From contig WIXG01000107.1 in assembly GCA_009869945.1 (NCBI GenBank), positions 62,001-126,000 on the forward strand: a DNA stretch of 64,000 nt, written 5' to 3'. Under the pieces are notes generated by a model that saw only the letters and a list, made by a program, of their open reading frames with translations, was not told where the DNA came from and searched no databases. Both the position numbers and the translations under genes were made by a program. Source of the stretch: Mesaphorura yosii (taxonomy: Eukaryota; Arthropoda; Collembola; Poduromorpha; Tullbergiidae). Positions 18,796 to 21,491 of this stretch are shown one piece after another (the stretch's first letter is position 1; the number at the start of each line of letters is the position of its first letter).

Positions 18796-21491
18796 TTAGA
18801 ACTGGCAAACCATGAACAGCATTCCAATAAAAATCAGAACACGCAGCGAGCCGTTTGATATTAATGAATTCAAACTTCCTGAAGTGGTAGTGGAAAGAGT
18901 TGTGGTAGGAGGTGTAGTCGAAGACGTCGGGCTGGTTGTTGTAGTTGGGGCAGTGGTCGTAATCGGCAAATCACCACTTTTATGGTGCAGCACCACGTCG
19001 TCAACGTAGGCAGTGGTCGAAGTGGCCACCGATCTAAAATATATGGCAACCTCAGAACCTTCGTACGCCCCAAATTTGAATCCGTACGGCTGATATCCAA
19101 TCCCATTGCGAATCGCCACCTCCTTCTGCTGAACTCCATCGACTCGAACACCCAAAACTGTCCCTTGGCCACTCGAGAAACACCAAGCCGTCAAATAGTA
19201 ATATCCTGTAACAGGCGCTGTAATATTTTGATACAACCCTACTGCAATATTCGATTTAGTCTCCACAAAGCCGCTAAAGTCTCCGTTCCAGGACAAGGAG
19301 CCACTAATGCCTCCCGTACTTCCTTCCATCGACCCGATGACCATCCACGGATTGTTGTCAGTCGCATTGTTCTCGAAGTCGCTGTTTAGAATGAGGTTTG
19401 TCTTTGGGCTGAGTGCAACACCTGCAAAAACGAACGTTGTAATCGATTTTGGAGGCGCCGTGTACTCGAATGCGGAAAATGCCATGTCAGGTGGTGGGAC
19501 ATCGGCATTTTGTTCAGTCGACGATGTTCGCGTAACCGATATTGTTGTCTCTTCTGTTATACTGAAGAGATTCAAATCCAGCATTGCAACAGGTGTATTG
19601 TCACCGTCGTTGACGAGAACAAAAACCTGTCAAACACGGAGGTGATAGATGTACAACAGTAATGACAAAACTTCTCATTTACCAATGTTTTAGTGGCATC
19701 ATCATACGCGGCAACTGCCTTATCGTTATTGATGTGGATGTTTGAAAATCCTGAATACAATAATGTCATTTAACGCAAGCAGTAACCATTGCCGGAAATA
19801 GTTTCAAAACGCTAGTTGCTTTGCATCTGTAATGTCTAGCTGTCTTACCTTTCTTGATGTACCGGCTGAACTGCATCATGGAATAGTAGCCATTATGGTA
19901 CTCAATGGTATCGAGCGTTGGATTAACGTATGGGACTCCGAGCAACCCCCACTCTCCAATGTCCTCCATAACTTGCCAGTAAACTAATGAAAAATTTGGC
20001 TTATTTCAACTCGGGCGCAACGAAAAGTGACAGAATTGAAGTTACCCCAAGCTGACGGAAGTAATTTTTTGAAATCTCTGACAATTCGATTGGCAATCTC
20101 CAAACCTTGACTCATGTCATCCAAATAGCTTCTTGCCCAGCCCCTTCGAACAGATGTAAAAGTACAGCAATAAAAGGGCAGAGACCGTACCGTGCTTCAT
20201 TCATGCTTGAAAATATGAGGAACTTACATTTCATCCATCCATAACCGATGTCCAGCGATTAAGGCTTCCTTCCTCAGCAAATCTCTCCGGTTACTGTTCT
20301 CATTTTGATCCCAGTAACCGTGTACATTCACCTTCTCGATTAAATTTGTAATGCCGGCGTCCTTGAAGTACTTCTGTGTCCCTGTCGCGGTATTGACTTG
20401 TGTCTCGTCAGCAGTTGTAATCTTAACATAGTCCATATTCCTACTTTGTAGACTTTCATGAACTCTCTTCACAATTTCGACCATCACATCGCGTCTCAGG
20501 TTACAGCCCTCTTGCGAGGTGAAATCCGGTCCAAGCCAACCACCTGGAATAAATACACCTTTGATAATCTGATGTTTGCACGGCGCATGCTCAGTGTGCT
20601 TCAAACCAATTCCTCCTAATCCAGACGGTTCATTGAAGGGAGCATACGTTTCAAATGTGATGTCCCACTCATCATGAAAATGACGAATCACTTCAGTTGC
20701 ATACTCCGCAAATTGAGTAGCATTGCTTGGGTCCAAATTGTTATGGACGAGACCTCCGAAGAAGTTTCCATTTGAACATTTGCTTTGCGTCATCCTGGGA
20801 AAAAAGAGCATGATGTAAAGTATGGAAAAGCGATAAGCAATTGCCAGCAAATTCTCACCAATCAGGTGGACTATTGGAAAAAGCTTCGAAAGTGTCGACG
20901 CCCAGCTCTTTGGACCGTTGCAGAATGCGCCGCTGAGTTTGATCTCGAGTCCCTTGTATTACACATTCATCATTTAAAAATTTGCTATTGTACAATTTGT
21001 GTTTGGATGGGCTTACGCACAATCGAATGACAGATCTGGGCCATCTTTGTACGATTCCGTCTTGGCTCCTGGTCTATACTCACCACAAGTTGTTTTTTCA
21101 GGAGTTGTGCCACCAATGACATACCGAACAATGTTAAGGTTGAGTCGATCAGGCTGAAAATGAGATTACATTCTAATGTGCCTGCGGCAGGTCGAGTTTC
21201 TTGTTGACCGTGCTTACAGAAAACAATTCCGACATGACCAAGTCCTGAACATCTTGAGGGTGACCACCAAGCCTGTCTGCCCACCAGGCCAAACTGGTTC
21301 CCCATCTAATTATTAGCCATGCGTTTAAGACCGGTACAGATTATATTGGGGGAGAACGTAGGAATTCCATACCCTTCGAAGTTTGGAACCAGCACCACTC
21401 CAGGATCAACGAAGGAGGTTTCCTGAGCAGATAATGGCCTGACACTGCAAACAAGGAACACCTGAACGAAACAAAACTTGATCAAACTCAT
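18796..21491 (-). CDS. GH30-type glycoside hydrolase with carbohydrate-binding-like domain and GPI-anchor-like tail
   Basis: Nine minus-strand exons join in phase: 21491-21373, 21305-21218, 21153-21021, 20952-20859, 20794-20228, 20143-20046, 19983-19849, 19750-19683 and 19626-18796, for 710 residues. An N-terminal hydrophobic segment ending in LSAQ is a signal peptide; I chose the ATG at 21491 over 21551 because it puts this peptide first. The catalytic domain carries FEGWGTSLAWWADRLGG, LNIVRYVIGG, the block TFEAFSNSPP, the acid/base motif APFNEPSG and the nucleophile motif LWMDEMGWA, all as in fungal and bacterial GH30 enzymes near endo-beta-1,6-galactanase. A beta-sandwich-like domain follows (LILNSDFE start, YVDDVVLH end), then a Thr/Ser/Pro linker and a C-terminal hydrophobic stretch ending MLFMVCQF, typical of a GPI signal. 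Likely secreted to the cell surface (gut?) to cut plant or fungal polysaccharide. The substrate is not certain. Confidence 0.88.

Follow-up and report, generated by a model that had tools for sequence, protein, structure and literature searches.

The genome of the springtail Mesaphorura yosii appears to contain a functional-looking, domesticated enzyme of glycoside hydrolase family 30, subfamily 5 (GH30_5), predicted to cut beta-1,6-galactan, a reading to which we assign a probability of roughly 0.68. The gene lies in the window, by which we mean the whole 64,000-nucleotide stretch analysed (C107:62001-126000; contig WIXG01000107.1, 218 kb). It is complete on the minus strand, running from an ATG at 21491 to a stop codon at 18796; the first-pass annotation of this DNA had these limits right and gave no strand.

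The gene had been described as interrupted by eight short introns, and indeed joining across eight introns of 56-98 nt, all of them GT-AG, leaves one open frame of 710 aa (Table 1). Pairwise alignment with a second copy in the same assembly (see below) reveals 21 residues that the window protein has between NEPSGLGGI and GGWLGPD and the paralog lacks. In the DNA this insert is exactly 63 nt long, starts with GTTTGA, ends with TTTATTCCAG, is in frame and contains no stop. Because the paralog lacks the 21-aa stretch, and because the stretch is exactly a 63-nt GT...AG segment, 20544-20606 is probably a ninth intron, which would make the product 689 aa long and the introns nine in number. The 689-aa protein was used once the insert had been recognised; the Pfam, PDB, host-paralog and first viral searches used the 710-aa version. 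A signal cleavage site, ..LSA/QET, was placed by eye in the product of exon 1.

Table 1. Features of the GH30_5 gene, in window coordinates.
Feature	Position	Strand	Remarks
Exon 1	21373..21491	-	start codon, signal-like stretch (about 21426-21491), start of GH30 domain (..FEG)
Exon 2	21218..21305	-	WGTSLAWWAD..
Exon 3	21021..21153	-	donor GTGCGT picked to retain a conserved Trp; paralog spliced at same column and phase
Exon 4	20859..20952	-	..SNSPPDW
Exon 5, first part	20607..20794	-	acid/base Glu200 at 20629-20631 (NEP)
Probable ninth intron	20544..20606	-	63 nt, in frame, stop-free; no counterpart in paralog protein
Exon 5, second part	20228..20543	-	Gln218, Tyr284, RRD motif, nucleophile Glu312 at 20230-20232 (DEMG)
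Exon 6	20046..20143	-	
Exon 7	19849..19983	-	Trp348 and Trp357 of subsites -1/-2
Exon 8	19683..19750	-	
Exon 9	18796..19626	-	end of GH30 beta-sandwich, carbohydrate-binding-like domain, linker, tail, stop
C-terminal beta-sandwich domain, carbohydrate-binding-module-like	18982..19398	-	
Thr/Ser/Pro linker, 29 aa	18883..18969	-	
Putative GPI signal	18799..18882	-	region of small residues, brief spacer, then hydrophobic end LRVLIFIGMLFMVCQF

The class of the enzyme was assessed with Pfam and the PDB. The Pfam scan of the window protein returned PF14587 (E = 2e-15) and, up to E = 1, no match to PF02055, the GBA1-type family. The closest solved chain was 24td (E = 6.9e-46), and 3clw (E = 3e-4) was the sole other chain up to E = 1. 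The matches to PF14587 and 24td rule out chance for the GH30 identity, and the motifs from which a catalytic domain had initially been recognised, FEGWGTSLAWWAD, NEP and DEMG, are all present. The further claim of a microbial-type GH30, as opposed to a GBA1-type one, agrees with the Pfam result and the closest structure. Animal glucosylceramidases of the GBA1 type are also GH30 enzymes, and several are encoded in the host genome, but the window protein differs from them in Pfam family, and membership of GH30_1 was rejected on the missing PF02055 match. The GBA1-type genes of this assembly seem to be multiplied, with 21 PF02055 matches on nine contigs (C622, C787, C31, C584, C236, C88, C86, C459 and C1001).

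The chain in 24td is Sa16Gal30A, described as a secreted GH30_5 endo-beta-1,6-galactanase of Streptomyces avermitilis, whose catalytic pair and subsite -1 are given as N216, E217, Q229, Y294, E320 and W350 (PMC13431644). All six are identical in the window protein and in the paralog; in the former, N199, E200, Q218 and E312 are among the equivalents, so numbered. Retained, in other words, are both catalytic Glu residues, the Asn preceding the first of them and the Gln (Q229 in 24td) that serves galactose recognition. At subsite -2 the stacking residues W350 and W359 are kept, while D354 is Glu in both copies and P355 is Asp in the window protein and Ala in the paralog. The secondary galactobiose site keeps R300, R301 and D302 and is changed at S297, G299 and W341, the last being Lys339 in the window protein and Asp339 in the paralog. 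That site, with its Trp341, is proposed in the description of Sa16Gal30A as a GH30_5 feature conserved in several members, not as the definition of the subfamily (PMC13431644). Elsewhere, K114 of 24td is Lys in the window protein and Arg in the paralog, and two of the six 24td residues that surround a bound glycerol, W165 and N186, are retained. W222 lay outside the mapped part of the chain.

Judged by its sequence, the window protein is a member of GH30 subfamily 5. It shares with Sa16Gal30A the subfamily, the Glu pair, the Asn, Gln, Tyr and Trp of subsite -1, the stacking Trp of subsite -2 and the RRD motif; it differs in lacking the secondary-site Trp, in having Glu for Asp354 and in adding a C-terminal binding-like module, a linker, a tail and host introns. 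Since the catalytic and subsite -1 residues are retained, the activity is likely to be that of an endo-beta-1,6-galactanase, and its preference could be a shifted one, given the changes at the edge of subsite -2.

The other parts listed in the first-pass annotation, namely a second beta-sandwich domain, a Thr/Ser linker and a hydrophobic C-terminus, are likewise all present in the window protein. The second domain matches no Pfam family, and in the host genome it was found only in the two GH30_5 genes. Among the best 80 bacterial loci it occurs in one, from a Nakamurella sp. metagenome-assembled genome (MAG; locus L072), where two copies follow directly on the GH30 domain (E = 7.7e-11); the next-best match among the 80 has E = 0.05. 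At full length the Nakamurella protein matches the window protein with E = 2.6e-100, the top score among ten genomes searched. It is like the springtail protein in carrying the second domain after the GH30 domain, but differs in having two copies of it, in being bacterial, in containing one in-frame stop and in having neither linker nor tail. The stop is a TGA, at about 379, in the deposited MAG contig. With the second domain of the paralog alone as the query, nothing below E = 1 was found in the 80 loci, the Nakamurella locus giving E = 2.7, and the whole paralog aligns with the Nakamurella protein through residue 621. The tie between this domain and Nakamurella depends on the window copy, and the Nakamurella row has an unusual residue make-up. 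Taken alone, the second domain occurs at E = 1e-6 in 34 of 394 actinobacterial genomes, that of Nakamurella included.

A profile built from four copies of the second domain was compared with solved chains. It matched 8xmz (E = 1.5e-7), 8ic1 (E = 1.3e-5), 8hhv (E = 1.4e-5) and, over part of the domain, the CBM61 chain 2xom (E = 4.2e-5); five further chains followed at E = 0.25 or worse. An AlphaFold model of the domain is rich in beta-strands, with a mean pLDDT of 71 and residues 1-16, 23-26 and 32-40 under 50. The fold search with this model placed the porphyran-binding module 8xmz first, then the endo-arabinanase entries 8ic1 and 8hhv, with the galactan-binding CBM61 2xom tenth, at TM scores of 0.62-0.70 to a model of that mean pLDDT. 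Of the 201 fold matches at E = 0.001, the best 50 include many unrelated proteins; the fold by itself therefore says little. A fair guess would be that the domain binds galactan or arabinan.

The paralog is encoded at C118:61930-64282, on another contig of this assembly, 204 kb long, where joining across six introns gives 622 aa, 49% identical to the window protein (304 of 615 aligned positions). Every one of its six introns matches an intron of the window gene in both alignment column and phase, and the window gene has two more. Two nearby ORFs combine leucine-rich repeats with a TIR domain, the nearer of them some 3 kb from the paralog, and one more ORF has the repeats only. The first two, within C118:50000-59499 (L024), are Toll-receptor-like.

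Both copies start with a signal-like hydrophobic stretch but their other ends differ. In the window protein the second domain is followed by a linker in which 25 of the 29 residues are Thr, Ser or Pro, then by a small-residue region and a hydrophobic end, with no charged tail, whose Kyte-Doolittle hydropathy reaches 3.09 over 11 residues. The paralog ends directly after the second domain, with neither linker nor tail. A GPI signal combines an N-terminal signal with a small-residue site some ten residues before an uncharged, hydrophobic C-terminal end. From its hydropathy, a putative GPI anchor on the window copy is plausible. The GPI-like tail suggested at first fits the window protein by hydropathy and is not common to both copies. 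Tail and second domain share exon 9, so that neither a gain of the tail here nor its loss in the paralog would have needed exon shuffling.

More distant relatives were sought in bacterial and archaeal genomes, where the scan gave at least 597 pattern matches and at least 564 GH30_5 relatives. The best 80 of these (at least 564) relatives all have bacterial titles, with top identities of 36-38%. In one actinobacterial class a relative at E = 1e-30 or better is present in 30 of the 394 genomes sampled, the Nakamurella genome again included. Two scans of viral contigs, with 7 and 42 pattern matches, yielded zero relatives.

Two trees were calculated, in which GH30_5 was represented by bacterial sequences and the springtail pair. 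For the first, 116 rows were reduced to 43 by removing those above 68% identity, and the outgroup consisted of a host GBA1-type gene and a further host-assembly GH30 gene, on contig C1001 (see below). The second had 44 rows, comprising 41 of those 43 and three PF14587 rows intended as an outgroup (L167, L168 and L169); in it 24td is the sole characterised GH30_5 member. The window protein and its paralog join at 100/100 in both trees, on a long branch (1.17-1.22). In the second tree GH30_5, springtail pair included, is split from L167 and L168 at 100/100, while L169 fell inside GH30_5. The pair itself may lie inside GH30_5 or at its base: the best second tree groups it with L167 and L168 at a support of 14/0. 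None of the five groupings of the pair tried in six AU tests was rejected (p = 0.08-0.50), whether with GBA1 (0.28), with GBA1 and C1001 (0.501), with the Nakamurella protein (0.365 in each of two trees), with a Streptomyces group (0.080) or with a larger group (0.101). Rooting on the GBA1-type and C1001 genes was dropped, since their branches are too deep (5.45 and 4.27 changes per column at the ends of the first tree, lengths that the program warns about) and the AU tests did not separate the placements; the nearer PF14587 outgroup likewise did not fix the place of the pair. The trees identify the enzyme class, not the donor. Of the microbial origin proposed in the first-pass annotation they uphold membership of GH30_5, at 100/100, and not nesting inside microbial sequences, as the AU tests reject no placement.

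Contamination of the assembly by DNA of a fungus or bacterium could be argued from the relatives outside the host genome, which are bacterial in scans that covered prokaryote genomes only, and from the presence of other contigs that are possibly foreign, such as C1001 (GC of the stretch 0.51) with its fungal-type GH30 xylanase. Against this, the gene has eight or nine short introns and sits on a 218-kb contig, flanked on one side by an alpha/beta hydrolase ORF and on the other by ORFs with CBM_14, GH20, JmjC and GTP-binding elongation-factor domains. These are the five of ten scanned window ORFs with a Pfam match above cut-off; four have none, and one has weak coiled-coil matches only. Local GC and GC3 resemble those of nearby ORFs, the GC3 of the GH30 gene (0.47) lying within the range of eight of them (0.38-0.58). 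The intron-sharing paralog on a second long contig, near Toll-receptor-like ORFs, also argues against contamination, which we therefore reject as hardly credible: the introns are of host type and the gene belongs to an arthropod genome, as had been supposed. A second way to dispense with a microbial donor would be for GH30_5 to be an old animal family, inherited vertically, retained by springtails and elsewhere either lost or not yet sampled. The long branch of the pair would suit this, as would a position beside the outgroup and outside the sampled bacterial GH30_5, which is not rejected. However, the host GBA1-type genes match PF02055 and the window protein does not, and the passages on GH30_5 in the galactanase papers name enzymes from bacteria and fungi only (PMC13431644, PMC12751061), the plant enzyme being GH5_11 and not GH30_5 (PMC12751061). 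Vertical descent is to our minds distinctly improbable. A microbial donor, whether a bacterium or a fungus, is the natural inference.

The substrate is a separate matter. The protein may be a GH30_5 relative whose specificity has shifted, say to a glycan of the host or to some other beta-linked galactan, with a non-digestive role at the cell surface. The replacement of D354 by Glu, the change at P355 and the loss of W341 would fit such a shift, as would the difference between a putatively tethered and a free copy and the origin of the nearest solved relatives of the C-terminal domain, in enzymes or modules directed at different galactans and arabinans. A shift sits less well with the retention of the six catalytic and subsite -1 residues, the galactose-selecting Gln among them, and the springtail diet is reported, in the relevant part of one account, to take in litter, pollen and algae (PMC12198962). 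We regard a shifted substrate as rather unlikely.

On the preferred reading, that of a domesticated endo-beta-1,6-galactanase, the window copy would cut the beta-1,6-galactan chains found in arabinogalactans of plants and algae, presumably in digestion and perhaps at the surface of gut cells, as first proposed, and the paralog would do the same job in solution, freely secreted. Partner activities could be supplied by GH43 genes, a family that includes arabinofuranosidases and exo-galactanases and has 13 matches in the host genome, 11 of them above cut-off, on seven contigs.

Several other features of the assembly deserve mention. Chitin_bind_4, a family we take to be a marker of arthropod cuticle, has 66 matches in it. 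Contig C1001, 13 kb long and with a GC of 0.51 in the part fetched, carries an intronless GH30 gene of 465 aa (L022:5497-6894, minus strand) with a ricin-B-lectin ORF near it; among solved structures it comes closest to the GH30 xylanases B and C (6iuj, E = 1.7e-89), making it a second microbial-type GH30 in the assembly, acquired or foreign. Isopenicillin N synthase (IPNS) is encoded at C420:5766-6945 in three exon-like pieces, 54, 70 and 61% identical to the fungal enzyme. Beta-lactam genes including IPNS are reported, in the part of the source dealing with their distribution, from several Collembola, from no other hexapod analysed there and from the nematode Plectus sambesii (PMC10531068). 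Together, the IPNS gene and the cuticle-family matches speak for a springtail host, in line with the first-pass guess. At 93.0 Mb in 1127 contigs the assembly is small for a springtail, five assemblies listed in one source, which we take to be of springtails, having 166-381 Mb (PMC8138834), and no COX1 match was found in it.

Acquired carbohydrate enzymes are familiar from springtails. Folsomia candida is credited with 809 foreign genes, 229 of which have CAZy domains (PMC5490193), and its FcAraf43 (PMC9460274) is, like the present protein, an acquired springtail carbohydrate enzyme with a signal peptide, but it belongs to another family, GH43, has another chemistry, that of an arabinofuranosidase, and is described in the sections concerned without any tether. 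The main text of neither the Folsomia candida (PMC5490193) nor the Holacanthella genome paper contains the term GH30. In another study GH30 is one of ten families whose size changed across arthropods, with no subfamilies given in the passages concerned (PMC11543626). Microbial-type GH30 genes have been described in other animals, as GH30_3 in whitefly and as GH30 xylanases in plant-parasitic nematodes; the former is of subfamily 3 and the latter are xylanases, unlike the springtail GH30_5, as far as the account of them goes (PMC11800479). Our literature search, which covered titles, the starts of abstracts and selected passages, found no animal GH30_5 or endo-beta-1,6-galactanase gene. What appears new is thus the animal member, the GH30_5 subfamily and the springtail habit of acquiring carbohydrate enzymes being already known.

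If the enzyme is active, it would add one more target polysaccharide to those that a soil animal can digest for itself. The two paralogs, which share introns but end differently, would moreover offer a direct view of how an acquired enzyme becomes membrane-tethered.
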